The notes under the pieces: generated by a model | Databases searched by the model: none | What the model was told of the DNA's origin: nothing | What the model saw: only the letters and a program-made list of their open reading frames with translations | Shown here: in pieces, positions 1,940 to 32,400 of the stretch | How positions within the stretch are numbered: position 1 is the first letter of the stretch | How the letters are laid out: each line of letters opens with the position of its first letter | From: a virus | Length of the DNA: 45,739 nt | Virus record (IMG/VR): IMGVR_UViG_3300032820_003134 | Span: 1-45,739 of that record | Strand: one strand, 5' to 3' | Program-made: the position numbers and the translations under genes

Positions 1940-2504
1940 TCTTTCTTTTTTCCATATATGTTTTTACATTTACTTGCCATACTGCTTGATCTGTGTAGGA
2001 GACTTTTTGTATTCCTTTATATGTAACTAAACCTAGTTTAGCCATTAATTCTAGTGCTCGATGTGTTCTGCCCATTTTCCCAGACCTATCATACTCTGCA
2101 CTTGTTGTAATAACAAAGTTGTTTTTTAATCCCGCCCATTTCATTGCTGGTAATGCATGACAGTAAAATGGTAGGCTGTTAAAATGATATCGTGACATTG
2201 TGCTAAAAACTTTATTAAATTCTGGAAGTTGTGCCCCGCGAAATAAAATACGATAAGTGTTGTCACTTATTTCTGGTACATATTGGCAACCAGAGATTGA
2301 TATTAATTTACGATTCCAAAATGTGCCCCAAAATGCAACTTCATTAAATTTTAAAGCCTCTGGGCTGCGATTGTTTAACCATCCAAGTTTGTCACATATA
2401 CTACAAAATTCTGTAAGATCGAAATTTTTTGGTATGCGGGTTGTTACTAGTTTATTTTTTTGTAATCCGGCCTTTATATACCATTTTATCAAATTTAAAT
2501 CCAC
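1896..2504 (-). CDS. Putative GNAT-like acetyltransferase or unknown, 202 aa, GTG start
   Basis: A 202-residue frame. The start is a GTG at 2504 preceded by AGGAG six bases upstream, a good Shine-Dalgarno sequence, so the 53-base overlap with the ligase gene appears real. An ATG two bases further upstream is in another frame and stops after three codons. The central region (AFWGTFWNRKLISISGCQYV, then a Glu-rich turn and ILFRGAQLPEF) resembles the beta-strand core of GNAT acyltransferases. I see no unambiguous acetyl-CoA pyrophosphate loop (R/QxxGxG/A). Flanking genes overlap on both sides, implying co-translation with the ANL ligase and the 265-residue protein. The GNAT call is tentative. Confidence 0.65.
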   Translation of the reverse strand: MDLNLIKWYIKAGLQKNKLVTTRIPKNFDLTEFCSICDKLGWLNNRSPEALKFNEVAFWGTFWNRKLISISGCQYVPEISDNTYRILFRGAQLPEFNKVFSTMSRYHFNSLPFYCHALPAMKWAGLKNNFVITTSAEYDRSGKMGRTHRALELMAKLGLVTYKGIQKVSYTDQAVWQVNVKTYMEKRKNAKMEQNPLFTYNG

Positions 2505-3144
2505 ATTTGTCTCCTGTGTTGAACCAGTCGTCGTATACGCATATGTCTCCTTTTACTATAAGTTCATCGTTTATTACATTGTGATCACAATAAAATCTAG
2601 TTCCTAATAATGTTTCGTCATTGTCATCCCACTGTATTGTTTCATGCACTTGATCAACAGTCCGAAACACATGATTAATAGCACAAGGTCCAATTTCAGT
2701 CATGCCCCAATTAGTCATAAAAGTTGCACCATGTTCGACAAACGGAATAATAATTCTTTTGTGAACCGGATCAGATCCACATGTAATCCATAGTCCTGAT
2801 AAATCTATATTCTTAATTGCTTTTGTTTTAAGTAAAAGTTCGCAATGCCCTGGTGTTAAATGTGTATGTGTATAACCGTTAACATCTTTAAAAAATGAAA
2901 AAGCATTAAACGGTATGATATCTACATGAGCACCAATGTCTAAAGCAGGTAGTGTTTGTGCAACTGCTCCTCCAGCATGACCTATTTTGCATACTGTTAA
3001 AATTCTTGATTTAGATGTTATTTCTTGAGAATCGATTGCTGTCTTATTAGCCGCTTTTAACTTTTCCTGTGATTGCCAGATTTCCTTTGAAGGACCTGTA
3101 GTTCCTGAGGTTTTTAAATAAAAACCATCCATACTGATGTTCAT
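2452..3144 (-). CDS. Minimal ANL-superfamily adenylate-forming enzyme (acyl-CoA synthetase-like), 230 aa
   Basis: Carries the core signatures of AMP-forming acyl-CoA synthetases and related ligases, which activate carboxylates as acyl-adenylates. The phosphate-binding loop TSGTTGPSKE is at residues 12-21, the aromatic/Thr-Glu motif NWGMTEIG at 145-152, the ribose-binding motif WFNTGD at 207-212 and the hinge region YKGRI at 223-227. Family members are usually about 450-600 residues. This one starts almost at the phosphate loop and stops four residues after the hinge motif, so the usual N-terminal subdomain of about 150 residues and the mobile C-terminal lid are absent. The motifs are intact and the frame is clean, which argues against simple decay. 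A weak AATAAATA box overlaps the end of the upstream gene. Substrate unknown. Confidence 0.85.
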   Translation of the reverse strand: MNISMDGFYLKTSGTTGPSKEIWQSQEKLKAANKTAIDSQEITSKSRILTVCKIGHAGGAVAQTLPALDIGAHVDIIPFNAFSFFKDVNGYTHTHLTPGHCELLLKTKAIKNIDLSGLWITCGSDPVHKRIIIPFVEHGATFMTNWGMTEIGPCAINHVFRTVDQVHETIQWDDNDETLLGTRFYCDHNVINDELIVKGDICVYDDWFNTGDKCGFKFDKMVYKGRITKK

Positions 3145-3512: not shown

Positions 3513-3680
3513 TTAGTTCTTACTTTTCTTTGTATAGTGTCTTGAGTAGATACCTTTTTCAACCATACGGTCTTCATAGTCTTCGATCTTTTTTACAATT
3601 CTTTTATCGACCCAATGTGCAATCAGTATTAAAGTAACAAATCCTATTCCACATAAACTTAATAATATCGTTTCGTTCAT
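3513..3680 (-). CDS. Small single-pass membrane protein, 55 aa
   Basis: A 55-residue frame beginning MNETILLSLCGIGFVTLILI. Residues 4-22 form one hydrophobic membrane-spanning segment, followed by a strongly basic and charged tail (DKRIVKKIEDYEDRMVEKG) ending KKSKN. The ATG at 3680 overlaps the TGA of the SbmA-like transporter gene as ATGA, a typical translational coupling. It is probably made in step with the transporter and may be a small accessory subunit or regulator of it. No family is recognised. Confidence 0.65.
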   Translation of the reverse strand: MNETILLSLCGIGFVTLILIAHWVDKRIVKKIEDYEDRMVEKGIYSRHYTKKSKN

Positions 3681-4714
3681 TGTCCATACCTCACTAGATT
3701 ATCTTCAAACTCATGTAGACGTTTCCAAATCGATCGTAGTTCAGTAATGGTTGTCCAGTTGTGTAGGAATAATGCAAATCCTCCATGCACTCTACTAAAC
3801 GCATTACTTACTTGTACCATAATACCTAAAGTAATTAATCCAGAGAATAATCCTGGACCCATAATAAGGTAAGGTACAATAATCATGAACTGATCATAGA
3901 ATACAACCCAACAGTCAAAATATCCATAATGAAGATATAGCCTATGATAGTTATAACGAATTCCTGTAAATAATTCGCCTAATGTTTCTGGTTGGGCATA
4001 GTTTGTTTTGTCATCTTCGCCTAGTACTAAATCCTTTCTAAATGCCGCTTCTACTCTTTGGTTGTTATATTCTAAATGCGGTAGTTTCCAACCGACAAAC
4101 CAACTTATTGCCATACCGCCTAGTGATACTATTAATGTTCCCCAAACAAGAGAACCTTCAATATCTCTGATAACTGGTATGTCGACTTTGTCGCTGAAAC
4201 CCCACAAAATAGGAATAAAGGCAATTAGTGTCATTACTGCTCGTACTACTTGCAGTCCTAATGACTCAATAATTCTTGCCCATCTGTTACAGTCTTCTTG
4301 AATACGTTGTGATGCTCCTTCAATTTCTCCATCGACTCCACGCCAACGAGGAATATAACTAAATGTAATAGCTTCGCGCCAACGCAGTCCATATATTCGT
4401 GCAAACCAACCTGTAAAAATGGCAAGTGCGATATACGGAAATACAATTTCTGTAAAAGATACTTGAGCAATTTCGCTATCAAACCCACTTAATGTATACT
4501 GTAAAGAAATCAATTGTGAATATAATTGAGTAATACCTTCTTGTGGGTTGTCTATATAATCTCCTGCTGTTTGCAACAAATTATAAAATCCGCCATACCA
4601 TGTGTTAATGGCCACTGTCATTTGTACTTGTAACCACAATGAACCAATTAGTAGAACTAGACCACCCCAAGCCCATAAGGCCCATTGTCTATTCCACCAA
4701 AATGATTTTAACAT
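3677..4714 (-). CDS. SbmA/BacA-family inner-membrane peptide transporter
   Basis: Clear homologue of SbmA/BacA, the proton-driven inner-membrane importers of antimicrobial peptides, microcins and modified peptides. Diagnostic stretches recalled from E. coli SbmA are conserved: AINTWYGGFYNLLQTA (residues 35-50), EGASQRIQED (132-141), MTLIAFIPIL (161-170), NNQRVEAAFRKDLVLGEDD (217-235) and the C-terminal TTITELRSIWKRLHEFE. There are multiple hydrophobic segments, for example near 13-31, 90-105, 155-173 and 188-208. At 345 residues it lacks roughly the first 65-80 residues of the 406-residue E. coli protein. The start is supported by TAGGAG before the ATG at 4714. It lies downstream of the methyltransferase gene and is coupled to the 55-residue membrane protein. 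The fold assignment is confident; the phage role is unknown. Confidence 0.92.
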   Translation of the reverse strand: MLKSFWWNRQWALWAWGGLVLLIGSLWLQVQMTVAINTWYGGFYNLLQTAGDYIDNPQEGITQLYSQLISLQYTLSGFDSEIAQVSFTEIVFPYIALAIFTGWFARIYGLRWREAITFSYIPRWRGVDGEIEGASQRIQEDCNRWARIIESLGLQVVRAVMTLIAFIPILWGFSDKVDIPVIRDIEGSLVWGTLIVSLGGMAISWFVGWKLPHLEYNNQRVEAAFRKDLVLGEDDKTNYAQPETLGELFTGIRYNYHRLYLHYGYFDCWVVFYDQFMIIVPYLIMGPGLFSGLITLGIMVQVSNAFSRVHGGFALFLHNWTTITELRSIWKRLHEFEDNLVRYGQ

Positions 4715-4767: not shown

Positions 4768-6054
4768 TTACATCACAAATAGCCTATCAAATGGAGTTTC
4801 GATATTTGCTTTCTCAGCACTATAAATCCAAATTGGCTCAACAAAACACTCTTGCATATGCTCAATGTTACCGCCCTCTTCGTTCTTGGGTCTCGGCATC
4901 ATTCTCATACCAACTACTTCTTGTAATGGCATATCAATAGAGTTCATATATTCTGTCATCGGATCACAAATATTGTATCTCTTATTTTTTATTTTAGCAT
5001 CAATTATGTTGATTGCTATTGCTCCATCGATTGCTATTACTTTTGAAATATTATCAAGTGTCTTAAAAAGATATTCAGAGAGCCAATCTTCATATTTAGG
5101 ATATTTGAACCAACTTTGTTTTTCATCGTTGCTTCCTTCTGCGTATCTTTCTGTTCCGAAATATGGTGGACTTGTGAATGCTAAATTATAATCTAAATGC
5201 GGCCATTCAACATTTTCGCTACCTTCACAGTAAATAATAACTTCTTTATTTCCTGTAATTGTAAAATAATTATCGTGTTTGCTTATGTTCCAATCGTCGC
5301 CTAATAGTTTTTCATAAAATATACATTGCTCAATATACATGTTCCATGTAGCAGGGTTCGGGTCACAACCTACATATGTTTCTGCGTCACTTGCATAAAA
5401 ACCTGCTAAACGATCGCCCCAACCACAACTGCTATCTAAAATTGCTTTAGCATTAAATCTATCGTACATATATTTTGCAACATGTGGTTTAAACTGTGTT
5501 GCTGTATATGCGCCAAGTCGAAATGCTTCTCTATATGCACCCGGATCAATTTTCTTTATTATGTCTCCCGGTCTCCAAAATGTCCAGTTAAACTTCTTTA
5601 GTGCATGAGCATCTTTCCAAGTATTCAATGGACTTAAAGTATCATAACCGTCACATCTTAAACGAGTCTCTTGATGAAAATAGTTACTAATATTGTTATA
5701 ATAATGTCCTAATTCAAGTACAGTTTTACAATATTCGCTTACTTGATATTTATAGTCATTAAATTTATCTGTGATGGCCGCAGGAGTGGGTGATAGGAAG
5801 TTAGAAAGTGGACAACTTCTTAATTTATAGAACTTTGAGACTACTTCTTTCCTACTAATTTCCTGTAATGGAAAGGGTATGTTGTTTTCAGTAATGTAAT
5901 TAACGAGGCATTCTTTTTCTAAATCTGCTGGAAATTGTTTTAAAAACGTTTTCCATTCAGCAAGTGTGAATACTGGTAACCCTGATGCGTTACCATGCTC
6001 CTCGTATATACGAGTAATGTCAGTCGTCTTCTTTAGTAAAGTTTGTGAATCCAT
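4768..6054 (-). CDS. DNA amino-methyltransferase (N6-adenine or N4-cytosine)
   Basis: An S-adenosylmethionine-dependent DNA methyltransferase. Counting from the ATG at 6054, the cofactor-binding motif I is DSSCGWGDRLAGF at about 207-219 and the catalytic motif IV is SPPY at 295-298. The motif order places I before IV. SPPY is typical of N4-cytosine and some N6-adenine enzymes, so the target base is open. The first 200 residues have no motif I recognise and may be a target-recognition or DNA-binding part. The frame could extend to 6126, deep inside gene 46, but 6054 gives a 428-residue product with a 35-base overlap like those of its neighbours. No restriction endonuclease is adjacent. It probably modifies phage DNA against host restriction, or acts in regulation. 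Confidence 0.85.
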   Translation of the reverse strand: MDSQTLLKKTTDITRIYEEHGNASGLPVFTLAEWKTFLKQFPADLEKECLVNYITENNIPFPLQEISRKEVVSKFYKLRSCPLSNFLSPTPAAITDKFNDYKYQVSEYCKTVLELGHYYNNISNYFHQETRLRCDGYDTLSPLNTWKDAHALKKFNWTFWRPGDIIKKIDPGAYREAFRLGAYTATQFKPHVAKYMYDRFNAKAILDSSCGWGDRLAGFYASDAETYVGCDPNPATWNMYIEQCIFYEKLLGDDWNISKHDNYFTITGNKEVIIYCEGSENVEWPHLDYNLAFTSPPYFGTERYAEGSNDEKQSWFKYPKYEDWLSEYLFKTLDNISKVIAIDGAIAINIIDAKIKNKRYNICDPMTEYMNSIDMPLQEVVGMRMMPRPKNEEGGNIEHMQECFVEPIWIYSAEKANIETPFDRLFVM

Positions 6055-7780
6055 TTTCTTTAATAACATTAAGCACATTGGAAACTCGTCCAATAAGTTC
6101 CTCCCTGTGCGATATGAGGAAAACATTTTTACTGCGTTCTCTTGACATTTTCTTTAATACTGCAAGTGCCGCTTCAACACCGTTTGTATCTGTTCCGTTA
6201 TCAATGAGTTCATCGATGAACATTAAGTTAATTGGTGAATGTAAGTTTTCAAACACATCTCTAAATGCCCAACTTAAACTTAAAATAAGTCTGTTGCGTT
6301 CGCCTCTACTTAAATTGTCAAAGTCAAGTTCTCTTCCAAGTTCCGTTATTTCTACATTCAAGTCATTGAGGAATTTAACTTCATGTGGCAATCCCATTTT
6401 TACTAAGTAATGATCTAATCGTGCATTAAGGTACGATAAGTTTTGATCAATAATTCCTTTGCGTATAAAACTGTCTTTGTTAATGAGAAGTTTAAGTAAG
6501 AACTCTTGATGATTCTTTAAGTCGTTAAACTTGTTAAGTATATCATAACTGATTTGCTGTAGTCCACCTGATTGTAATTCGTTAATTTGTTCAATGTGTG
6601 GGTTCTCTTCTTGTTCTTCGTTTTCTAATTCAGTTTTTGTTTGTCTAATACTTTGTTGATGATGATATGCATCGTCAATACTATTATAAAATGTTTCTGG
6701 CTTGTCGCCCGGATCTCCAATTTCCTCAATGTGTTTTTCTATAACTGCAATTGCTGTATTTGTTTCATTTAAATTTTTTTGTGCTTCTGCAATTTTCTTT
6801 GTTAGTTCTTTAATAATTTCGTTGTGCCGTTGGTCATGTATTTCTTGTCCACATGCATAGCATTTGTGATCTTTTGATGTTTCTAAATTATCACTGTTTG
6901 TATCTATTCCTGAGAGATAATTTTGCTGGTGTCGTTTTTGCAAAGACATTTCACGCTTGTACCTATGCAAGTCGTTTGTTTTTTGATTATAAATTTCTAA
7001 GTCTTTGTGATATTGTATTTCTTTTACAATAGCAATTTTTTCAAGTTCTGTTAATGCTTCTTCTAATGCTGTAATACTGTTATTGTGTTCTTCAACCCAG
7101 TCCTCACTTCGTTTTTCAATTCGTTGTATTTGCTTGTCGATTTTTTCATTAGCATCTTGTATTGACTTTATGTTATATTCTTCTTCAGTAATAGACTCGC
7201 GAGTTTCTTTAATTTGTTCTTTTAAAACTTCTGCTTTACGACTGAGTTCAGTAATACCTAATAGTTCCTCAATAAATTCTCGTTGATCATGTGCTCGCAT
7301 ATTTAAAAATGGTTCAGTATATGTGTTTAATGCAACAACATGCTTGAACAATATTGGACTCATTTTTATGATGTCTTCGATTACTTCTTGTGTATGTCTG
7401 TTTTCTCCCTGCGCTGTGTCAATAGCTTCGTCTACTTCTTTATTGTCAACATAGAATTTAAATTTATTAGGACGTCTGCTTCGTTCGATTTTATATGTGT
7501 GATTGTCTTTTTGGAAAGTTAAAGCGACAGCCATTTGCTTACCATTGGTTTTATTAATGAGATTGTCGCGTTTAATGTTTGTTATTGCCGCACCGAACAA
7601 TGCGTAACTAATAGCATTGACAAGTGTAGTTTTACCAGTTCCGTTTCTGGAGCCGTCACTACCTAAATCAATATTATTACCTAATACTAATGTTAGTGCG
7701 TCTTTATCAAATGTAACGCCTTGTGTTACTGCGCCAACACTCATAAAGTTTTTTAATGTAATGTCTTTAATTTTTAACAT
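6020..7780 (-). CDS. 46: gp46-like recombination endonuclease subunit (Rad50/SbcC-type ATPase)
   Basis: The large ATPase subunit of the phage SbcCD/Mre11-Rad50-like nuclease, which processes DNA ends for recombination-dependent replication. Visible features in order are Walker A GSRNGTGKTT at residues 43-52, long coiled-coil arms either side of a zinc hook CYAC (Cys307 and Cys310), the ABC signature LSRGE near 490-494, and Walker B ending in the acidic pair D523-E524 (LMFIDEL). At 586 residues it is close to T4 gp46. The ATG overlaps the stop of gene 47 as TAATG, so the two subunits should be made in step. In T4 this complex also feeds host-DNA breakdown. Confidence 0.97.
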   Translation of the reverse strand: MLKIKDITLKNFMSVGAVTQGVTFDKDALTLVLGNNIDLGSDGSRNGTGKTTLVNAISYALFGAAITNIKRDNLINKTNGKQMAVALTFQKDNHTYKIERSRRPNKFKFYVDNKEVDEAIDTAQGENRHTQEVIEDIIKMSPILFKHVVALNTYTEPFLNMRAHDQREFIEELLGITELSRKAEVLKEQIKETRESITEEEYNIKSIQDANEKIDKQIQRIEKRSEDWVEEHNNSITALEEALTELEKIAIVKEIQYHKDLEIYNQKTNDLHRYKREMSLQKRHQQNYLSGIDTNSDNLETSKDHKCYACGQEIHDQRHNEIIKELTKKIAEAQKNLNETNTAIAVIEKHIEEIGDPGDKPETFYNSIDDAYHHQQSIRQTKTELENEEQEENPHIEQINELQSGGLQQISYDILNKFNDLKNHQEFLLKLLINKDSFIRKGIIDQNLSYLNARLDHYLVKMGLPHEVKFLNDLNVEITELGRELDFDNLSRGERNRLILSLSWAFRDVFENLHSPINLMFIDELIDNGTDTNGVEAALAVLKKMSRERSKNVFLISHREELIGRVSNVLNVIKENGFTNFTKEDD

Positions 7781-8814
7781 TATAGAGAATTATAAATTGC
7801 TATTAATACCCTTGGATCAAATGTATCACTTTGTATATCTTGCAAATGTGAAATAACAATTTGATCTACACTTTTAAATTCAATCTGCCCAATAATATCG
7901 CCTTCTTCGTGTTCAGTATCTTTCCCTGGCAGTAATGAAAATTCTCGTAAAAGAAAAGTTTCAGTAAATAGATCCTTAAGAAAATTTGCTTCCTCATATG
8001 TAATATCAATATCTAAATGAATTCGCGCATGTGTTTTTTCACGCAAATACTTTTCAGGATCGTTAAGCAGTGTAGTTAATCGTAGTGTCCTATATGTTGG
8101 TTGATCAGGCCATGCAAAAAAGTTAGGTTCCTCACCCCACCCTAAAATCATTGCACCTCTTTCATCATCCCATGCATCTGCATAGTTGTGCGGAAATGCA
8201 TTGCCTATATAAACAACTTTACCTTTTACTTGTCGCGTATGAAAGTGTCCACTAAACACTAGTTCTGGATGACTAAAATGATCATCGTTTAATCCACCAT
8301 GGTCTGGCATTTTTACCATAGCATTCATATAAAAACTTGGTAATTCAAAATGCCCAAACATATATTTGCATTTAATTTTTTGTATTTTTTTCCATTCGTT
8401 GCCAACAAGCCATGGAATAAGTGCTACATCACCTTCAACAAGTGGTTCATTGATTTGTGTAAAATTTTGAAGAAGTTTGTTAAACTCAATACTGTTTAAG
8501 TTTCGATTATCTCTGTAATATAGGTCATGATTGCCGTTGAGAAAATATACATTTTCAAATGCATCGTTGAGCAAACTTAATGCTTCTAAAGTATAGTTCA
8601 TTGTGCTGACATTAATACTTGCTCGCTGATGATGCCAGTCACCAAGAAAGATGCATTTTGTGCATCCATTATCGTGTGCAAGTTCAATGAACCATTTAAC
8701 AAAGTCTAAACAGTCTTGATTGTGTAAGTGACTATTATTTTTTAGTCCAAAATGTATATCAGTAAAACATGCTACTTTTTCAAACAGTTGTATCTTTTTC
8801 TTCGCCTTTTTCAT
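7780..8814 (-). CDS. 47: gp47-like recombination endonuclease subunit (Mre11/SbcD-type)
   Basis: The metallophosphoesterase nuclease partner of gp46. The metal-binding motifs are all present: D19-x-H21 (TDIHFG), GDWHH at 58-62, GNHD at 94-97, then GHFE and SGHFHTR further along. At 344 residues it matches T4 gp47 (339). It acts as a dimer with gp46 on double-strand ends. The start at 8814 overlaps the end of the gp55 gene by 35 bases with no strong Shine-Dalgarno sequence, suggesting translational coupling. The gene order gp55-gp47-gp46 is a compact T4-like replication/late-transcription block. Confidence 0.97.
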   Translation of the reverse strand: MKKAKKKIQLFEKVACFTDIHFGLKNNSHLHNQDCLDFVKWFIELAHDNGCTKCIFLGDWHHQRASINVSTMNYTLEALSLLNDAFENVYFLNGNHDLYYRDNRNLNSIEFNKLLQNFTQINEPLVEGDVALIPWLVGNEWKKIQKIKCKYMFGHFELPSFYMNAMVKMPDHGGLNDDHFSHPELVFSGHFHTRQVKGKVVYIGNAFPHNYADAWDDERGAMILGWGEEPNFFAWPDQPTYRTLRLTTLLNDPEKYLREKTHARIHLDIDITYEEANFLKDLFTETFLLREFSLLPGKDTEHEEGDIIGQIEFKSVDQIVISHLQDIQSDTFDPRVLIAIYNSL

Positions 8815-9652
8815 CTGCTAGTTTTTGTGCCCGGAGTGCCTTTTGTTCTTCTTCATGTTTCATTTGCCTTGTAAAACTAGGCATTGCGCCTGCGTGTTGT
8901 AACATATCGTCTCGTATATTTTGGTTTCTTTTTTCAACATTTAATATTCTAGTAAAACTGTTAGTAATTGCCGCAGTATAGTATGCAAATGGATTTTGAC
9001 TTTTGCTTTCGTCAAACTGTAATCCAATTTGTGATAGTTGTAATAATGCTTGTCCTCGCATTTCATCTACATAAGTATAGCCGCGCCAATTGCTTCGTTG
9101 GCTATATCGCTCGACTAATTTTATATACATTAATGCTAGTTTGTTAGTTACTTCTCCGTGAGTTAATGAAAATTTTCCTTTTTGTAATCCTCTTCGCCAA
9201 TGACTTCTTCCAACTTCTGTTAATTTTTTATCAATATAAGCATAATGTTTAAATGGAGGAAATGGTAGTTTAATATGTCTATCTGCTACTGTTTTTGGAT
9301 TACGTTTTCTTCCTGGATCCTCTGGTATATGATCAAACCCCATTACTCTAAATACTAAATCTTTTAACTCAATTGAAGCTGGGTCTACTACAATCTCTGA
9401 TGTTTTAATTGCTTTCTTTTCTTTAGCATCTTTTGCTTCACTTTTTGCTTTTTCTATTAGGCCATCACGCATACGTTTTGCTTGACTTTCTCTTGCAAGT
9501 TGTATTATTTCATTAGTAATTTCGTTAATGTTGTGTACAATAACATCAAAATCAGTATAGTTTTTGTTAGTGTAATAAGAAAAACTAGTTTTTGATTTGT
9601 GTATTTCTGCTAACATATCTTTGTTGTTTAAATAATTTACTCTCTTTGCCAT
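8780..9652 (-). CDS. 55: gp55-like late-transcription sigma factor
   Basis: Sigma factor that directs host RNA polymerase to phage late promoters. The central-to-C-terminal part carries the conserved gp55 core: a region-2-like segment (YVDEMRGQALLQLSQIGLQF, then NPFAYYTAAITNSFTRILN). This follows an unusual charged N-terminal half with a long helical Lys/Glu/Ala stretch (about residues 55-80) and a conserved-looking KLPFPPFKHYAYIDKKL. At 290 residues it is longer than T4 gp55 (185). Its product should recognise the GATAAATA/TATAAATA boxes in this window. AGGA-type sequences precede the ATG at 9652. Confidence 0.9.
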   Translation of the reverse strand: MAKRVNYLNNKDMLAEIHKSKTSFSYYTNKNYTDFDVIVHNINEITNEIIQLARESQAKRMRDGLIEKAKSEAKDAKEKKAIKTSEIVVDPASIELKDLVFRVMGFDHIPEDPGRKRNPKTVADRHIKLPFPPFKHYAYIDKKLTEVGRSHWRRGLQKGKFSLTHGEVTNKLALMYIKLVERYSQRSNWRGYTYVDEMRGQALLQLSQIGLQFDESKSQNPFAYYTAAITNSFTRILNVEKRNQNIRDDMLQHAGAMPSFTRQMKHEEEQKALRAQKLADEKGEEKDTTV

Positions 9653-20600: not shown

Positions 20601-23404
20601 TGAATACTGTTTATGATGCACCAACAGTTACGTATTTAGATGCTAACACACTTCGTGTTGTGTGGCCAGCAGTTGTTGGTTCACAAACCGGTTTTATGGA
20701 TATTATTAAATCACAGTTTATTAGCCCATTACATTCGTCAGCAAACGAATGGGTTTTTAATCATGGGTTAACTGGTACTGATGGGCTTGTCACTGTTGAA
20801 GTCATATATGATAATGATAACGCTGCACAAGGTGGGCTTTCTTATCCATTAATTGAATATTCAAGTGAAACTGTTTGTACAGTTAGGTTTCCGTCTGGTG
20901 TTTTAGCTTCTGGATATATTGTAGCAACAAATAAATTTGGTGAAAGTGGTACAGTAGGTAGTGCATATACTGGTACATTTACTACATCAGAAGTGTCAAC
21001 CGGTGTATGGCAAGCTACTATTACTCATAATTTAGGTAAACAAGATTTAAATGTTGATGTTGCAGTATTAGGTAGTGAAATTAATTCAGCAATTTATGAT
21101 ACAGCTGCTACCCCATCTTTATATTATAATATTAAAGGAAATTATGATTTTCCGACAATTAATTTTATTGATGGGAATCAATTAACATTAACATTTTTAG
21201 CAACAGCAACAGCAACAGGTAAGGTAATAATTTCAGGCGGAGACTTATTTGGAAATCAAATACAAGCAGCTGGTGTAGTACATATGGAAGTTGGAGACGA
21301 CTCAACAGCATCGACTAGTTGTGAACCCATAACGGTAGTTAACGGTGGTAGTGGTTATAATATTGGAGATCAAATTCGACTTAATGGAACCAGTACTACT
21401 ACTAGTCACTGTACTTTTACAGTTGCAACTGTTAATTCGGGTGTAGTGTTAACTGGTACAGTGTTAACAGGTGGTGATTATACTGAAGCACTTGGATTAG
21501 ATGGGCCAATTGCTTGTCCAACTACAACAATAACAGGAACTGGAGATAATCAGTTAACAGTTAGTTTGAATTATAAAGTAAAGGAAGTAGAAGTAACAAA
21601 TGTAGGTGATGGATATCAAACAGCACCAATTATTACACTTGGTTCTCGAACAGGTACTTGTGGTACAGGAGCAGATGCAACAGTAAGTTCTGCTGTTAAT
21701 GGTAAAGTAACTGCAATTAATATTGATAATCCAGGATCTGGATATACTGTAGAACCAACTGTAACAATTGATTTATCATCAACTACACTTGAAGCAGACA
21801 GAGCGATAGGAACATCAGTTCTTTCAAGTAGTGTTTCTACTGTTACGATTATTGCAAGTGGTGAAAGTTATAATTCGTCAAGTCCACCAGCAGTAACATT
21901 TCCTGTACCTTCTAATCCACCAGCTGGTGTTATAGCAGTAACCGCAACAGGTACTGCTATAGTTAGTGTCGGTGGTAATGTAACAGGAGTTACAGTAGAC
22001 AATGGTGGAGTAGGTTATACAGTAGCAGATGCTAGTGCGGCGGTTATTATTGGCGCAAGTGGTGAGATTATGTCTATTGATATTACTGACACAGGTTTTG
22101 GATACAGTGGGCAACCAGTACTTACATACGCAACGACAGCTGGAGGTGTTGGTGCAACAACATTAGCTGTACAGGGATTTGTGAGTAATGTTGAAATGTC
22201 TGATGCAGGGCAAGGTTACACTGATGCTACGTCAGTTGTATTTTCAACACCAACTGGATCCGGTGGAGTTAATGCTACTGGAGCTCCGATTTTAAGAACA
22301 AATAAGAGTCTTGAAAGTGATATTAAGTTTAATTTATCAGACCTTTTGACATATGAAGATGGATATCAAGATCCACGCAAAGCATTAATTACTTTCGTTG
22401 ACAGTAATAATGATGGTACCCCTGATGATCCATTAAGTTTTGATCGTTTTGTTGATACGACTCGTTATATATTCCAAGAAACATTTACTGATTTTGACGG
22501 ATATGTTTATTACAAACTCAGTAAGGATGTGCTACAGGCAGTTAATCAGTTAGAAGAAAATATTATTCTCGTTAGTGGTGCAGATTACAACGGAAAATAT
22601 ATTTATAGAAGTGATTTAGAAGTTTTTAAGAAGATCTCGTTATTAGGAAGTAGTTATATTGCAACAACATTGAGTAATAACAATGCAGATGGTGATAAGA
22701 AATTTAGTGCTTTTATAGGACGAAGTGGTTATCAAACACCTATCATTAATTCTGCAGACGAAACTGTTACAGCACAGACTGAAGAAAATATATTCTTCCA
22801 ATGGAAGCATTATGCACCAGTTGATCAACGTATTGATCCGAGTATTACAAATTTAATTGATGTTTTTGTTTTAACATTAGCATACTATAATAATGTTGTG
22901 TCATGGAAATCAAACAATAAAGATATAACAGAGTTCCCAGAAACACCATCAAGTTCAGAATTAGCAATTTTATTAGCTGATTTGAATGATTTTAAGAGTA
23001 TTAGTGATGAGATTATTTATCGTCCAGTGAGATTTAAAATATTATTTGGTTCTAATGCTATACCAGAACTTCGAGCAAATTTTAAAATTGTTAAAATGGT
23101 AGGTAGTAATTTAAGTGATAATGAACTACGAAGCCTAGTTGTCCAAGCAGTAAATGATTTCTTTAATATTGCTAATTGGGATATGGGAGAAAGTTTTTAT
23201 TATACTGAGTTAGCTGCTTATATACATCAAACTATGCCAACACATCTAAGTAGTATAGTAGTTGTGCCAACACAAACAGAGAGTAATTTTGGTAATCTGT
23301 TTCAAGTAAAAGCAGACCCTGACGAATTATTTTTAAGTACTGCACAAGTTAGTGATGTTGAAGTAGTTAAAGGATTTACTGAGCAGAATTTAAAAGTTAA
23401 ATGA
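17615..23404 (+). CDS. 6: gp6-like baseplate wedge protein with a large internal insertion, 1929 aa
   Basis: Baseplate wedge protein that with gp7 and gp53 builds the inner baseplate and triggers sheath contraction. The N terminus (DFDTIKQSMVEYLVRNFPEE, then FIAIIELLAYMGQTIAFRQD and ENFLDTAERDESILRLAKML) is typical of gp6/baseplate-J proteins. The C-terminal 370 residues resume a wedge-like sequence (TYEDGYQDPRKALITFVDSN). Between about 790 and 1545 lies extra material made of GSGYxxxPxVT repeats and three copies of a WxxxHxLG domain. T4 gp6 is 660 residues. AGGA precedes the start, and its TGA overlaps the next ATG. Confidence 0.88.
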   Translation: MAQAQRHSNLFAAEDFRTIYRSFSEINFTAYDFDTIKQSMVEYLVRNFPEEFNDFIESSEFIAIIELLAYMGQTIAFRQDLNTRENFLDTAERDESILRLAKMLNYVPKRNLPGAGLLKLYSIRTTEEIFDSNGKDISNQTLIWNDVNNADYLEQILLVLNAAFINQNSFGTPVAKGTISGVDTELYHFNNVKSVKIVYPIQANVNSVSVPFEVVNVTFDDGLFFKEVEPNPDSSFGIVYLNDGLGNSSNNTGFFTYVKQGQLKFEDFDIQVPLPNREINIAQENINNLDVWVQTINSAGTVLDTWEKVPAVSGHNVVYNSIARGTRKIFAVNSDTEGTISLNFADGEFGDVPYGTLRVWYRQSHSVSVNVKPEHIGTQSIQVSYLDKNSIKQTLSVALQLESNISNNAPAETNAEIKTNASQVFYTQDRMITGEDYNIYPAFKNANIVKIKSLNRTHAGHSRYIDINDPTGTLQNLNVFAEDGIIFKDEQNNQTTFKLTSSLTPNTIIMNYIQPQLSLDELTNFYYDMYRKEVQIVDGNAAWKLIASEELEWVTMPDAKQSNKGYLILNGADAVSANSISIGAVATGKYAYLIEKCLLEFKDPTGEIIKFATAENIINNGDPIGLATGPVELNVEIPRGYTLARFYPRFKRLFNTAEKTEIYTQLNLKNTFGIGFDYKLGGFYVIAPNNLDLTSTNFSLSNQKDNTSSNKDNSWIIKAEYNEATDTTDASYVITTRGLRYVFESEEEVRFYFNNAFKTIDIKTGQAQKDSITILKVNLDKRAEIERVAVTSPGYGYITAPTVTFNFPGEVEPAEGVASLSWNTIIGGTGGSGYQPTTSGINYLDSNVVDADGKQTEIVINNLGVLSSTGRSVQLRANLSDAATGTLNITTGSVGTIVLTTDGTHLVQGGSGYTATPSVTLSAPPSGITATATAIVSSQVSGTSLVAPTYAGGGYQNIPSLYISPPGFSGQVWTVAHGLGQKFVNFEIINTSHNVVNTVYDAPTVTYLDANTLRVVWPAVVGSQTGFMDIIKSQFISPLHSSANEWVFNHGLTGTDGLVTVEVIYDNDNAAQGGLSYPLIEYSSETVCTVRFPSGVLASGYIVATNKFGESGTVGSAYTGTFTTSEVSTGVWQATITHNLGKQDLNVDVAVLGSEINSAIYDTAATPSLYYNIKGNYDFPTINFIDGNQLTLTFLATATATGKVIISGGDLFGNQIQAAGVVHMEVGDDSTASTSCEPITVVNGGSGYNIGDQIRLNGTSTTTSHCTFTVATVNSGVVLTGTVLTGGDYTEALGLDGPIACPTTTITGTGDNQLTVSLNYKVKEVEVTNVGDGYQTAPIITLGSRTGTCGTGADATVSSAVNGKVTAINIDNPGSGYTVEPTVTIDLSSTTLEADRAIGTSVLSSSVSTVTIIASGESYNSSSPPAVTFPVPSNPPAGVIAVTATGTAIVSVGGNVTGVTVDNGGVGYTVADASAAVIIGASGEIMSIDITDTGFGYSGQPVLTYATTAGGVGATTLAVQGFVSNVEMSDAGQGYTDATSVVFSTPTGSGGVNATGAPILRTNKSLESDIKFNLSDLLTYEDGYQDPRKALITFVDSNNDGTPDDPLSFDRFVDTTRYIFQETFTDFDGYVYYKLSKDVLQAVNQLEENIILVSGADYNGKYIYRSDLEVFKKISLLGSSYIATTLSNNNADGDKKFSAFIGRSGYQTPIINSADETVTAQTEENIFFQWKHYAPVDQRIDPSITNLIDVFVLTLAYYNNVVSWKSNNKDITEFPETPSSSELAILLADLNDFKSISDEIIYRPVRFKILFGSNAIPELRANFKIVKMVGSNLSDNELRSLVVQAVNDFFNIANWDMGESFYYTELAAYIHQTMPTHLSSIVVVPTQTESNFGNLFQVKADPDELFLSTAQVSDVEVVKGFTEQNLKVK
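19988..22234 (+). repeat. GSGY-type beta repeats and three HxLG domains within gp6
   Basis: At protein level, about eleven copies of a G-x-G-Y-x(3)-P-x-V-T-like unit lie near residues 792, 829, 909, 951, 1243, 1331, 1372, 1414, 1463, 1493 and 1531. Three larger units beginning WxVxHxLG start near 969, 1042 and 1128, with spacings of about 73 and 86 residues. Similar glycine- and threonine-rich units occur in tail fibres and other surface-exposed phage proteins. The DNA repeats are diverged, so the array is not a recent expansion. Confidence 0.7.
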
Positions 23405-26400
23405 CAATGAATGATCGCGTATTTAAAAAATTACCTTTAACTCACCAAACAGAAGTCCTTAATAAATTTTTTAGGGCTACAATAGACCAATGGTTTACTA
23501 AAGACAGTGCAGTTAAGTCGTTAGGTTATGTAGGACAAAAAAATGGAGGAATGTTTAATCCAGTAAAGGATTTTTATTTTCCTGAGGTTGATTTAGCACG
23601 ACAAAACTATCAACTTGAGCCAATACTTACCGTTAAAGAAACAGATACAGCATCAATTGTTAATACATTCTTTTATGATGATGTACTTCGACAGTTATCG
23701 ATTGAAGGTAGTAATATCTTTAATCATGATAGATTGTTTAAATCAAAAGCATATTCGTGGGCACCACCAATTGATATTGACAAATTTCTTAATTATGAAA
23801 ATTATTATTGGTATGATGACGGCCCAGTTAAAATTAATGTTACAGCAACACCTACAAATCCTCTTAACGTTAGCACAGACATTATTGGACAAGTATCTTT
23901 TACATCAGTAAATGGTGTCGAACTTACTAATGGATTAAAAATTGAATTTAGTGGTTCTAATATTACGCCATCGACTTATGTTAATAAAGAATATATTGTC
24001 GAAGGAGTAGGTACTAGTATTCAGTTACTAGAACTTACTAGTAATGATTTGGATCCAGTTCTTCCATATGTAATTTCGTCAAAGGATTCCCCACACATGT
24101 GGGATTATGATTTTTGGGATGAAGTAGTATGGGATGCTACAATTACAACAGAAGGTACTGAATTAGAAGATCGAATAGATTATGTAACAATTAAACGAGG
24201 TGCCGCGAATCAAAATCCATGGAGTCGTACTAATCGATGGTTTCATAAAGATGTTCTTTTAAGGGCAACTGGTAAAGCAACTGGAAAAAGTTATACAACA
24301 GAAACATCCGAGATGTGGGATAATGCTTTGTATGATTCAACTCCGTGGGATGTAACAATTGCAACTTTTAATGAAACGTTTTCTTTAAATAATTTACGGC
24401 AGGCAAAAAGGCCTATTGTAGAATTTAGTAATGATTTAGAGTTATATGATTATGGGCTTGAAGGTATAGGGTATACAACTGTAGTTAGTAATAAAACATA
24501 CGATGAAATTCATTTAGCTACTGATCCTGTTATTGATGAGCACACATTAGTTACTGGTAATTTAGTAATATTTTTAAATGTAGACTTGTTAAAGTTCAAT
24601 CCATGGGATGGAACAGAATGGGATCCAGGTTCTCATCCTACAAGTCAGCAAACTTCGCCCGGACCATATTTAGATATGCCTGCAGGAACATCAGGTGATT
24701 GGGATGTTTCATTACAGACAGGTGCTGAAAGCTTGGGTGTAGTTTACGAAGTTACAATGAGTTCAGGAGTTTGTACTTTATCTGTTAATAAAGAAGTAAT
24801 GGTCGGACAAAAAGTTTTTGCTAAGGCCGGAGCAATATATGAAGGTAAAGAATTACATTGGGATGGTAGTGATTGGAATTTAAGTCAGTTAAAAGCTAAA
24901 CAAAATGATGAACCATTGTTTCAATTGTATGATAATGAAATAGTGAAAGTTGATGATAGTGGTTTATATCCTGATAGTATATTTGTTGGCAGTCCGTTGT
25001 TCAGTTATAAAGAATCAATTGGAACAAATGATGCTTTTATTGGAAAGCCACTTGAATATAAAGAATTTGGGCAGACTGCGGATATAGTTTTTTCTAATAA
25101 TTTTGAAGATGTTATTACATATAATTCAACTGATATTGTTCTTGGTTATAAGTATGCTCATCATTATAGTATTGATTCAACTGCATCGGCAACTCTTCCA
25201 CCTAAAGATAAGTTAATTTCTTCTTATAATAATGGATGGAATCCAACAAATGTTTTTAGTAAGCAACGAGTTGTAGATCGATTTATTCCTGAAACTGATG
25301 GTGCACAAGATCATGTTTTAAGTGTTTTACCATTAACAAATAGTCCTGCTGATGTTGTTGTTACAGTAGATGGTGTTAGAGCAACACAATCTACAACAGG
25401 TACTCCTAAAGATTATAGTATTACTGAGAAAACATTAACATTTTCGACTAATAAACCAATAACGGCAAATCAAGTTATTGAAGTAAAATCGCTTACAGCA
25501 GATTTGATTAACTTAAATGATGAAGCTTATTTTGAAGTTCCGAACAATTTAGAAGCAAACCCTGATAATTTAGATCTTGTTAGTGCAACAGCAAGTGAAC
25601 TTCTTGAGCATTTTAAATCTATTATTGAAAATCAGCCCGGAGTTATTGGTAATGCTATAGGCACAAACAATTATCGTGATACAAAGCAAGATAGAAGTCG
25701 TGGTTTGAGGATTTTACAGCATGAAAGTACATTACTTCCTTTAATGTATTTGCTTTCGAATAAAGAAATTTTTAATGTTACTGAAAGTATTCGATATGGA
25801 CAGAATGAATATGCTGGCTTTAAGAGCAGGTTTATTCAGCAAGCTGAGACTTTGTCAATACAAGAACCAATTGATGAAATTAGTGCTTTTGTTGATCATA
25901 TATTAGAAGCGTTGTATCTTCGACGCAGTGAATTAAAAGTTTTTAATGATACTAAAGCAGTTGGTTATAGTACTAACTATGTTGAAACAGTTTACTATCC
26001 AAATTATGATGTTGGGTATATTAATTTAAATATTTTACTTTCAGTTACTGAAATAGTAAACAAGGAAAAAATACTTTACATTTATCGTACAACTCCAGCA
26101 GAAAGAGAAGCTGGAAAATATCATACATTATTAACAAAGAATGTTGATTATACATTTGAAACACATATTGATGAAGTCGGTAACCAAGTTACACGGGTTA
26201 TTTTTATTCAACCTTTGTTACGCAATGAGAAAATTGAGGTTCGTATTTTTGAGAATATACAAAATGCATTTGTTCCTGCAACACCAAGTATGCTAGGAAT
26301 GTATTCTGTATGGGTTCCAAAATTTGAGACTGACAACACTTATGTTGATGGTAGTCAAGATTTTATTGTTGGGCATGATGGTTCTCGGACATTGAGATAT

Positions 26401-29400
26401 AATGATTATCGAGACGATGTATTATTAGAACTTGAAAAGAGAATTTATAATGCAATTCCTGATAAGTTTACTAATGATTATTTGCCACAGTTGAATCATT
26501 ATCAATTTACACCAGGCAAGTTTAGAGATATTGATTATATTACAGATGAATATAATAATATGTTAGAGCCAATTGTCCAGCGTTGGGCAAAAGAACATGA
26601 AGTAGATCTTTTAACACATCGTACATTTGATGAAAGTCTCCCGTTTACTTGGAACTATTCATCGCAGTTAGATCGTGATGGTAAGCTAGTGCCTGGTAGT
26701 TGGCGAGGAGTTTATTTACATTTTTATGATACTGTGCGCCCCCACACTCATGTATGGGAAATGCTTGGATTTACTGATAAACCTTCATGGTGGGATAATG
26801 AATATGGAGCAACAGTTAAGACTAATACACATCTTTGGAGTGATTTAGAGAATGGTATTATTCGTCATGGTGTTCGTGCAAATTATACAGATAGTAGTTA
26901 CTTAATTGATAATTCATTCAAACGAATTGGTTTAAGTAATTTTATTCCAGTCGATGATTTGGGTGCTTTGCTTGACCCAGTTGCGGCCGGAATTTTCGGC
27001 GATCCAACAACACTTATTTCTGGTGGTGTGTATTCGGCTCCACATGGCACCGAAAGAGGCGATCCGTGGGTGTTTGGTGATATAACTCCAGCAGAATATG
27101 GAGCAAGAATTGATTCTGTTTGGCCATTTATAATGAGTAAATTAGCATTTTTGTGTCGTCCTGCAGAGTTTGCTGTTAAGAACTGGGACACATATAATGT
27201 AGATAGATCAAAAGCACAAAAAGAACAATTTGTTTTTAATGATACTAAGAAAAGAAAACAAGTTAAAGATTTTAGATTTCATCAAGAAACCAGTTCGGAT
27301 TATGTATATGGATACCAGCAATGGCTTTATAATTTATTTGTAGGTTCAGGTAGGGATTACAAATTTGTAATGAATGATATTTTTAAAACTGTTGGAGTTT
27401 CTCTTGGATATAAAGCAGGCGGTTTTATCAGTAACAACTTTAAGGTTATTGCTGATACTTATAGTACTACTCGTACAAGCGATAGTATTTTTGTTCCAGA
27501 AGAAAATAAGACAGTTCGTCTCCATGACGGTGCTAGTGAAGGATTGAGAGTTTATAGTGGCGTTATTGTTACTATTACTGAATCTGGATTTAGTGTTAGT
27601 GGATATGATTCATTTAATCAATCATTCTATATTTTACCAAGTGTTAATACGGGTGAAAGTACTGTTATTGAAGTAGAAGGTGTTCGAGTTACTCGATATA
27701 TTTCTCATTATGATGTTGTAACTGAAGTACCATATGGGCAAGAATTTGCAAGTATTGACGAAATTTATGATTTTCTTATCTCGTATGAACGATATCTTCT
27801 AGCAGTCGGTTTTGTGTTTGATAATTATGATTATGATTTAAATTCTATGCTAGATTGGACACATGCTGGAAAAGAATTTGTATTTTGGGCAAGTATGACA
27901 GCATGGGATGTTGGTTCGTTTATTACATTAAGTCCGTCAGCAAGTCGAATTAAATTATCTACTACTTCTATTGGACGTATTTCAAATGTTAAAGATGTTA
28001 TTAATAATACATATTCTATTTTGAATAAAAATGGTAACTTGATTCCTTTTACTGATTTAACTATTAGTAGAGAAGCAGATTATTTTATTATTACAAGTGT
28101 CTCAGGTATAGGAATTTATGGTTTTAAGGTTAACACATTTAAATCAGAACATGCTATTGTTTTTGATAATACAACTAGTTTCAATGATTTAATTTATGAT
28201 CCTTTGTTAAGATTACGTCAAGATAGATTAAAACTTAATATAACAAAGACAGCCGATTGGACTGGTGCTGTTAATGCTGATGGTTATATTGTTAAGGATG
28301 ATACAATTATTCCAAACTTTGAATCAACTGCAAATAATTATCGTAAGTTTCATAATGTGTATAATACTGCAACGTCAACTGCACAAGTAGATAGTGCTCG
28401 ACATTTAATTGGTTATCAGAAGAGAGATTACTTAGATAATATTACAGAAGATTCAAATATTTCGTTTGATTTTTATAAAGGTATGTTACAACAAAAAGGA
28501 ACAAGCGGAGCAATTGATAAATTGTTAAGAAGTAATAAACTTAATAATGATAGTATCTCTTTCTTTGAGGAATTTGCATTTAAGGTTGGTGAATTTGGTG
28601 CGCTAGGAACTACAACAGATAATGAAGTTAAGATCCGGTCGGGTGATGTTAGGGTAAAGAATCCTTTAATAGAATTTACTTATGAGGATAATTCAGTTGA
28701 TGTTATATATGATGATGTAATTCAAATTAATTATAATAATGATAATCGATGGTTTCAAAAGCCAAAAATGGCTAAGACAAATGTTTGGCCGAAATTAAGT
28801 TTCGGCTATCGCGATACGTTTAATTGGTTACCAACCGCCGGTTATGTGCATGACGATGATATTACATTTAAAGTATTTGATAATGCAGGATTAGCTGCAT
28901 TAAATACATCTCAACGCTATAGTACTGAACCAGCAAAAGGTGCTATGGCTCAAATAGCACAATGGAATAATAATGAGTTTTCTGTATGTAAATTAATTGA
29001 AACTAATTTTCAAGTTTATAAAGCAGTATTGTTAGATACAGGAAAAACAGAAATTAGTGTTATTGATGAAAATATTCCAACTGTTGTTGGTAATATAACA
29101 GATATTTCTGTTAAAATCGACGATACTGTTGTTATTTCTCTTGATGGAGGAGCTGGGCAAACTGTTACATTAAGTAGCTTCTCATCAACAATAGAAAATG
29201 AACCTTTAATGGTAGTTGGTTGTTCTGCCGCAGATAATATTCAAAAGGATGATAGTATTTTTATTAATGGAACTGAAGTTATTTTTAGTTCAGTACCTGC
29301 TGGTCCGTTTACATTAATAGGAAGTGAAATTGAGCCATCAATTACAAGTGCAGGTTCGATTACAATTGATGGAACGACTATAAATTTTGTTGTTGGTGAC

Positions 29401-32400
29401 ACTCTTACAACTGCTGGTACTGGTGGTGTTGCAGGTGGTATTATTGCTAATATTACTGCCGCAGTTACAAATGTAACAGCAACAAGTCATAATGGATATT
29501 TGCGTCTTGCAACAACAGGAAGCACAATTATTATTGTCGATCAGGGCAATGGTATTACAGGAATGTTAGGAATACGTGAAGGTAGTCATCATTATCCGAT
29601 AACTGTATCCGAGGTACATACAGATATTTTAGCTGCTAATGTTTCAAATCTTTTTGCAACAAAAGATGAGATACAAGACGAAATACAATTATCGAATACT
29701 GATAGCACTATTGCAGTTACGGCAGGTGTCGGTAGAGCCTTTACTTCGTTATTTTTTAGGAACAGTGATAGTCAAGCAGTTACATCAATTGATAATCGAG
29801 TAATTGTTATGTCAGACGTAATTGCTGATTTAAATGATGCTGGATTAGATGAAGATTTTTCCGCCGGAGTTACTATTGATGGTTATTTACAATTAACTTA
29901 TAATGGTGCATCTCTAGGTGTTACTGGAACAGCATTGTCTGGTCTAGGAATTCTTGCACAAACAAAAACATTATCATCGAGTGCAGTTACTGAGCATCCG
30001 TTTTCACATAAGGATGCTGTAGTATTGCAAGATGTTAAAAATTCTACTGGAGTTTCAATGGCTGTTGATGGTGGATATCTTATTGAAGAAAAAACAGAAG
30101 TAGTTGATAAGTCAATAACTATTCTTAATAGTGTTATCACAGTTGCAGATAATACTACTGGAACTTCAACAACGTTAACAAGTACTGGAATTATTTCTTT
30201 GTATGATATTGTTTCAGCCGAAAGAGATTTTATTGAAAAAGTTCTTATAACAGTTAAGACAGCAGTATCGCCAAATGAGATTGTAATGGGCGATCCAGGT
30301 TATGTTGGTAATGCAACAGATCAAGCAACTTCAGCAACTAGAATATTTTCTGCATTTGTTCCATATGTTGGGCAATATGCTACAGGAAAAATAGGTCCTT
30401 ATACTGCATTAATTGATGGAAGTGGTAATATTAGTATTAAGACAAGTTCTGGTTCGAATTTTACTTCAGGGAGCATGGATGTTTTAATTTCAATTAAGAA
30501 GAAGGGTATTTTTGATATTAATTTATTAGTCGAAGAAACTGGAAAAAGTACAGCAAATATTCTTTGGTGGCATTCCAGACGATTTGTAACAAAGACTGAT
30601 GCACTTGATAGTGTTAAAGGAAATAAAGAGTATTATGAATTAACAGATTATGTTTGGGTTGATAATGATCCCGATGGTTGGATTGTTGCAAAACTTGTTA
30701 ATAAAGATGCTACGACATTTGATACTATGTTTACAGTTACCCGGCAAGAAGAGCAACGTGTTAATACTGGATTATTTAATAGTGCGAAATTATACGATAG
30801 TGATGCACGAACAGTTGATGCAAAAATGGAACTTATTGATCATTCAAAAGGTGTTATTAGTGGATTGGCTAATACAGAAATTACGTATAAAGAAAAACGA
30901 GATCCAGCAAGGTATAATGTAACAGATAATATAAGTTTTCTAGTAGAAGAAGATGATATGTGGGATCATAAACAAGTTGGAAAACTTTGGTGGGATCTTA
31001 GCACAGTTTCATTTTATGATGCAGAACAAGGTGATAATCGTTATAGGCGGCAGTACTGGAATAGTTTGTTTCCGGGGGCAACAGTTGATATATATGAATG
31101 GGCTAGTGATATTGTAAGACCTAGCTCGTATGCAGGAACAGGTACAGTACGAAATGCTAATCAGTATAGTCAAATTGATGAATGGAATATTGAAACAAAT
31201 CAATTTGATACAAAATATTATTTCTGGGTTAAAGGTAAAACAACAATTCCAGAGACAAGAAGTAGAGAACGTAGTGCGTTTGATGTCGCAAGATATATTA
31301 GCGACCCATCCGGACAAGGTATTTCATGGTATTCACCAGTAAGTAATCATTATGAATGGACGTTAGAAGTTACCATTCCTAACACAAGTGCAACACAAAG
31401 TTTTAATGCATTGGTATTACCCACTGAAATTGTAGGAGTTACATTAAATGGTACTGCAATTTGGAATTACACTGCCGGCACTGCTGATGCAGATGGAAAA
31501 ATAAGTTCAATTGTTCTTGCATCATTACCAACAATTAATGATGTTTTAAGAATTAGTTTTAAGAGACCTGGTGGTGCAATGGTTATAAACAATGTTGATC
31601 ATTTGCTTACAGCGGATAGTTCGACGTTGCAATTAAGTTATAATATACAAAAAACAGAAAATAATATTCATAAACAATGGATATTGCTTCGTAATGATGA
31701 TTCGCGTAGTAAAATTCCAACCGAGTTTATAAACAAGATGTTTGATAGTTTAGTTGGATTTGATAAGACAGGATTGTCTGTGCCAGATACTGCTTTGTTA
31801 CATGAAGTTGAAAGATATGGTATGAGTATTCGGCCACGGCAGTCATGGTTTGTTAATATTAAAAATGCAAGAAAAGAGTTTGTAGTGCAACTTAATTTAA
31901 TATTAAGTGTTTTGGATACTATCGATGAGAAAACAGGATGGGATCTTGATGTTTATACTAGTTCAATGCTAGAATATATTGATTGGTGGGAAACTGGTTA
32001 TAGTAATGATACTGTTGTTAATTTTACAGTTAATACAAAAGCCGAGAGAGATACTCTTGGCCTTGGTGATATTGTTGATCCAGTTGTTAAAGTATTAAAT
32101 GCAGGCGGAAATACATGGCGGGTATATAAGTATTCTACTTCAGCACAAAAATTTACAAAGATAGGTGTCGAAAAACAAACAGTTAAACTTAAAGATACAG
32201 TGTATAAAAATGATTTAGCATTAACTGACAGTACAGAATTACGTAGTGTTATTGAAGCTATTTTTAATAATGTTTTTACAGTTAATTGGGAAGTTTATAA
32301 AAATCAGTTGTTCTTTGATATGATAAATTATGTATTAACAGAACAAAATGATGTAAGTTGGGTATTTAAGAGTACATATATAAATGTAACAACAACTGAA

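Follow-up and report, generated by a model that had tools for sequence, protein, structure and literature searches.

A virus with T4-like genes was found to carry an intact gene of the SbmA/BacA transporter family. The gene occupies positions 3677-4714 of the 45,739-nucleotide stretch of DNA analysed here (IMG/VR record IMGVR_UViG_3300032820_003134, below called the window), and its location among phage core genes together with its cellular relatives marks it, on sequence grounds, as a phage auxiliary gene of host origin. We consider it rather probable that the product is a host-derived, proton-coupled importer, which would keep up or raise the uptake of peptide-like solutes, or of other bulky hydrophilic ones, in infection; in this explanation we infer the direction of import, the substrate, the timing, and the benefit.

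Identification of the transporter gene

The open reading frame at 3677-4714 (minus strand) is intact, comprises 345 codons, begins with ATG, and is directly preceded by an AGGAG-type ribosome site. The deduced protein of 345 amino acids matched Pfam SbmA_BacA (PF05992) with 383 bits (cut-off 24, 1.5e-114) over positions 1-314 of the 315 in the profile, and NCBIfam PRK12369 (NF009036, "putative transporter") with 469 bits (cut-off 385) over positions 1-322 of 326. The score against PRK11098, which represents SbmA proper, was 298 bits and stayed below the cut-off of 492; this match began at profile position 83. A search of the PDB yielded E. coli SbmA (2.7e-66), with SbmA residues 80 to 393 aligned. 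The claim of the first-pass annotation that a phage encodes an SbmA/BacA-family importer was borne out by the PF05992 match and by the T4-like surroundings. The absence of the N-terminal 65-80 residues, also reported there, is real relative to E. coli SbmA but does not represent a truncation, as PRK12369 members normally have this length. Because PRK12369 was matched above its cut-off and the model of SbmA proper below its own, the seemingly missing N terminus is a trait of the subfamily, and a truncated SbmA was ruled out. The profile matches place the protein in the SbmA/BacA superfamily as a full-length member of the short PRK12369 subfamily without TM0 helices. Both motifs that had been regarded as conserved were recovered, as EGASQRIQED and NNQRVEAAFRK. 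Antisense ORF matches within the gene were overlap artefacts. Downstream follows a gene for a small protein of 55 amino acids of the single-TM type (3513-3680, minus strand), the start of which overlaps the stop of the transporter gene by 4 bases.

Proton path and fold

In SbmA, the glutamate ladder consists of E193, E203, E269, E276, E287, and E378, without which transport is abolished or severely impaired, and the gates are formed by Y368 and L349 (PMC13316013). Alignment of the window protein to E. coli SbmA revealed glutamate at all six ladder positions (E140, E150, E215, E222, E233, and E325). The loss of key glutamates of the proton path had been named earlier as an argument against a functional importer; all six were retained at the positions named for SbmA. 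They were invariant across a diverse viral alignment and nearly invariant in 330 viral and host rows, a set in which some contigs were fetched more than once. The gate positions Y368 and L349 corresponded to L315 and L296, and the central-gate position, Leu in the window protein, was variable across the family. When an AlphaFold2 model of the transporter (pLDDT 73.7) was compared with the PDB, SbmA structures ranked first (TM 0.80), ahead of Rv1819c (TM 0.74) and of ABCD4, a cobalamin exporter from humans. TM0a/b are absent, and therefore details of the dimer and the scaffold may differ from SbmA.

Phage context

Four further genes on the minus strand form a block with the transporter gene. 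They encode a DNA-methyltransferase-like protein of 452 amino acids with a TSPPYF motif (4768-6126), a T4 gp46-like (SbcC) recombination nuclease subunit (6020-7780), a T4 gp47-like (SbcD) subunit (7780-8814), and a T4 gp55-like late sigma factor (8780-9652), so that the order reads gp55-gp47-gp46-methyltransferase-SbmA. Tail-lysozyme and baseplate genes are also present in the window, and the transporter gene is flanked on either side by genes of T4 type or viral genes. This gene content is consistent with a lytic lifestyle. The complete order was repeated on an independent 107-kb contig (L354, IMGVR_UViG_2651870089_000025) at 62-74% identity, and the order gp55-gp47-gp46-SbmA was seen on the independent contigs L029 and L030. 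The identifier of L354 departs in its prefix from the 33000xxxxx numbering of metagenomes, so that this contig may derive from an isolate or a single cell. Among isolates, Pseudomonas PA5oct-like jumbo phages were nearest for the window's gp46 and gp55, with only about 50% identity. In T4-like contexts of two different kinds, viral SbmA is often immediately preceded by a methyltransferase gene; the relative on contig L008 matched N6_N4_Mtase (1.2e-4).

On other T4-like contigs, SbmA was located between gp43/regA and uvsX/gp41 or, on L041-L055, in the baseplate region; it was also found on contigs of 158-376 kb. In the baseplate group (e.g. L043:9109-14583), the ORFs on either side of SbmA match one structural-protein family, phrog_2576, at positions 13-283 and 299-579 of 587, which looks like an insertion into, or a split of, a structural gene of the baseplate region. 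On the T4-like contig L023 (5840-9303), genes for an NMT1/THI5 binding protein, an ABC ATPase, and an ABC permease are wrapped around SbmA, an operon by which the phage appears to carry an ABC transporter for a nutrient or vitamin precursor. On L060, positions 1-1178, including SbmA, matched a MarineAlpha9 bacterial contig at 98.6%, and the remainder consists of T4-like structural genes; this viral contig is likely chimeric.

Three other regions of the window deserve mention. Near the transporter cluster, positions 2452-3144 encode part of an AMP-binding enzyme (profile positions 170-331 of 384), either a fragment or a reduced enzyme. The baseplate/tail region contains an unusually large gene of 3883 codons (23401-35052). 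An open-ended ORF at 44447-45739 gave weak matches to the Crinkler N terminus (1.3e-6) and DUF5517 (6.6e-5), which probably reflect chance or a common ubiquitin-like fold.

Distribution and origin of viral copies

A viral copy had been regarded as unexpected. It proved to be no single case, as hundreds of viral contigs carry SbmA: an alignment-based scan showed that 439 IMG/VR stretches encode relatives of the transporter. The fetched loci contained 139 distinct viral sequences (124 of full length), and of the fetched loci, which number 263 with duplicates counted, 168 had a marker of T4-like or related phages on the examined piece. Among the 24 contigs of at least 32 kb bearing the nearest gp46 relatives, five carried the transporter family. 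No genuine carrier was detected among cultured phages; INPHARED gave three matches of about 40% identity. One of its matches lies in a 7.5-kb Salmonella record without annotation. CAKLQH020000002.1 (L368, "Acinetobacter phage MD-2021a") was rejected, as its neighbouring genes yaaJ, tdcB, and pepO are ordinary bacterial ones and the record looks like host chromosome in a phage collection.

The expectation of a distinct viral clade under purifying selection was borne out in one part only. Pairwise dN/dS among viral transporters was 0.03-0.12, which we read as "strongly constrained" because some dS values approach saturation. A single viral clade, in turn, was rejected, with a log-likelihood lower by 847 and a p-AU of 2.65e-5. 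Viral copies were interspersed among genes from the chromosomes of SAR11, SAR86, and others, and well-supported branches of the unrooted tree forced at least seven changes between virus and host labels. Thus, the gene has moved repeatedly, and its exchange with hosts explains why the viral copies do not form one clade.

In trees, the window copy fell among viral sequences close to SAR324 L082 and deep SAR11, and chromosomal relatives reached 80% identity to the window protein. A gene for a membrane protein of 55-60 amino acids followed right behind the transporter gene in the window's viral clade I, in three deep SAR11 genomes (80% identity), and in SAR324 L082. Of 61 genomes related to AAA288-G21, a single cell of deep SAR11, 54 contained a chromosomal copy, one of them only partial. 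The chromosomal surroundings in SAR11, read from sequence, were conserved: an NDUFS4-like gene precedes the transporter gene, and a gene for an AEC-type permease follows it. Of the SAR324-related genomes other than L082, only 1 of 57 showed even a partial match. SAR324 was therefore rejected as a general donor, and SAR11 is the better-supported reservoir. As the SAR11 copies are syntenic core genes, passage from host to virus is the simpler and probable reading of the direction, the label changes themselves having been counted without a root.

An ExbB/ExbD-like module next to viral transporters

In many viral lineages other than that of the window, the transporter gene stands behind a module of three genes for membrane proteins. 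The first product matched MotA_ExbB (PF01618) at 1.5e-7 to 2.3e-6, above the curated cut-off. By inspection, the second is a stator-like protein whose N-terminal helix carries, like that of ExbD, an invariant Asp. A small membrane protein is the product of the third gene. The module lay upstream on the same strand for 30 of the 139 distinct viral SbmA sequences, with a gap of less than 150 bases in 16. Conversely, among the distinct modules followed by 2 kb or more of sequence, 35 of 57 had the transporter on the examined piece, mostly directly after the third gene, a count biased upward by seeds taken from SbmA-linked copies. For comparison, the module occurred at one of 80 gp46 loci, which has the transporter as well. 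Where the transporter is absent, other genes follow the module, e.g. a ClpP-like one. Rhizobium phages also have the module without SbmA, with relatives annotated as hypothetical. Module loci include L074:8438-9985, L018:7950-9746, L501, L559, and about 60 others. No such module was found among the ORFs of the window's 45.7 kb, which represent a genome fragment.

This adjacency suggests a cassette for uptake driven by the proton motive force. Microcin J25 enters E. coli by way of both SbmA and the TonB-ExbB-ExbD pathway (PMC8183687), a logic shared with the viral cassette; the parallel is suggestive. As a tentative extension, marine T4-like viruses might possess a four-gene uptake machine driven by the proton motive force, in which a channel of the ExbB/MotA type and a stator of the ExbD type, the latter with an extracytoplasmic beta-domain, are combined with the third membrane protein and SbmA. 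Such a machine could rebuild the import of nutrients or peptides through the envelope of infected SAR11-type cells. SbmA and the small membrane subunit of the window would then be a reduced form of it.

Discussion

In the explanation that we favor, the product of the window gene would be a homodimeric SLiPT-type importer of the inner membrane powered by the proton gradient. The gene may have been captured from a marine bacterium, with deep-ocean SAR11/SAR324 as the closest relatives, along with the small membrane-protein gene behind it. The T4-like virus would carry it as an auxiliary transport gene and would have the importer made in infection alongside its replication genes, so that peptides, or bulky hydrophilic solutes of another kind, might be imported at an undiminished or higher rate while host gene expression is shut down. 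The placement of SbmA within the nutrient ABC-transporter operon of L023 and behind the ExbB/ExbD-like module in many lineages speaks for this explanation; the Leu at the Y368 gate and the lack of TM0a/b speak against it.

A role in protection or exclusion appears unlikely. Here, the importer would clear toxic or signalling peptides (from the host, grazers, or competitors' microcins) from the periplasm, comparable to the action of BacA in rhizobia against plant peptides, or it would alter the envelope and so exclude rival phages. The position of SbmA between gp43 and uvsX in some viral lineages speaks for exclusion, as T4 carries its superinfection-exclusion gene imm there. SbmA/BacA members are also reported to act on antimicrobial peptides (PMC12003926; PMC8183687). 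However, import by SbmA usually sensitises cells, and no gene for a toxin, for immunity, or for exclusion was detected adjoining the window transporter. The chromosomes of SAR11 also carry SbmA as a core gene, an argument for housekeeping uptake.

Slightly less likely still is import of vitamin B12, as known from the related Rv1819c, for an adenosylcobalamin-dependent ribonucleotide reductase of the phage. Rv1819c was the second-best fold match, and an RTPR-type reductase occurred on 14 of 55 SbmA-bearing viral records. This co-occurrence proved to be confounded by phage lineage, and the link was discarded. Where both genes are present, they mostly lie kilobases apart. A role in B12 supply is not supported for the window because RTPR was found on none of the 24 contigs of its gp46 lineage, SbmA-bearing ones included, and because two SbmA phages carry a B12-independent class I reductase. 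RTPR together with SbmA was recorded for L018, L020, L021, L024, L056, L059, and L069 and for the records of L194, L215, L232, L352, L356, L361, and L362.

It is highly improbable that the gene is a neutral passenger from the host and of no benefit to the phage. Host genes do enter phage genomes, which is nothing direct in its favor, but the dN/dS of 0.03-0.12 was maintained over long divergence, the ladder is intact, acquisitions were many and independent, and the operon position is recurrent. An assembly chimera of phage and host DNA, raised by the first-pass annotation and reminiscent of L060, is practically excluded for the window because its gene order recurs on L354 and on L029/L030, with viral genes on both sides.

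The proton-coupled importer that we prefer belongs to a family known as a door for microcins and host-defence peptides. To our knowledge, its natural substrate is still not known. That viruses of the bacteria most abundant in the ocean have captured the gene repeatedly and retained it suggests that this substrate matters in infection. The many independent acquisitions, the small partner protein, and the ExbB/ExbD-like neighbour provide a natural experiment for finding it, and solute import of the SbmA type would join the host functions taken over by marine viruses. We found no paper in the open-access literature that links SbmA or BacA to phage auxiliary genes or to SAR11, and a 2025 survey of the SbmA/BacA family mentions neither phages nor viruses.

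Comparison with known systems

The window gene resembles auxiliary transport genes of marine T4-like phages in its host origin, in encoding an inner-membrane nutrient protein, and in its location where the core replication region is variable. It differs in type, as no SbmA/BacA-type importer was found reported for phages in open-access papers. With the PRK12369 subfamily of SAR11 and other bacteria, the protein shares its length, the glutamate ladder, and a full-length match above the cut-off; the difference is that the window copy resides on a T4-like phage. The ABC transporters Rv1819c, BclA, and YddA have a related transmembrane fold, which alone was matched, whereas the 345-residue window protein lacks a fused nucleotide-binding domain. 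YddA is devoid of equivalents of E203 and E287 (PMC13316013), both of which are present in the window protein. E. coli SbmA and rhizobial BacA (SLiPT) have in common with it the fold, the six-glutamate ladder, and the absence of an ATP-binding domain. In contrast to these, the window protein is without TM0a/b, is longer by about 20 residues in the TM1-TM2 loop, carries Leu instead of the Y368 gate, and, at about 38% identity, scores below the PRK11098 cut-off.
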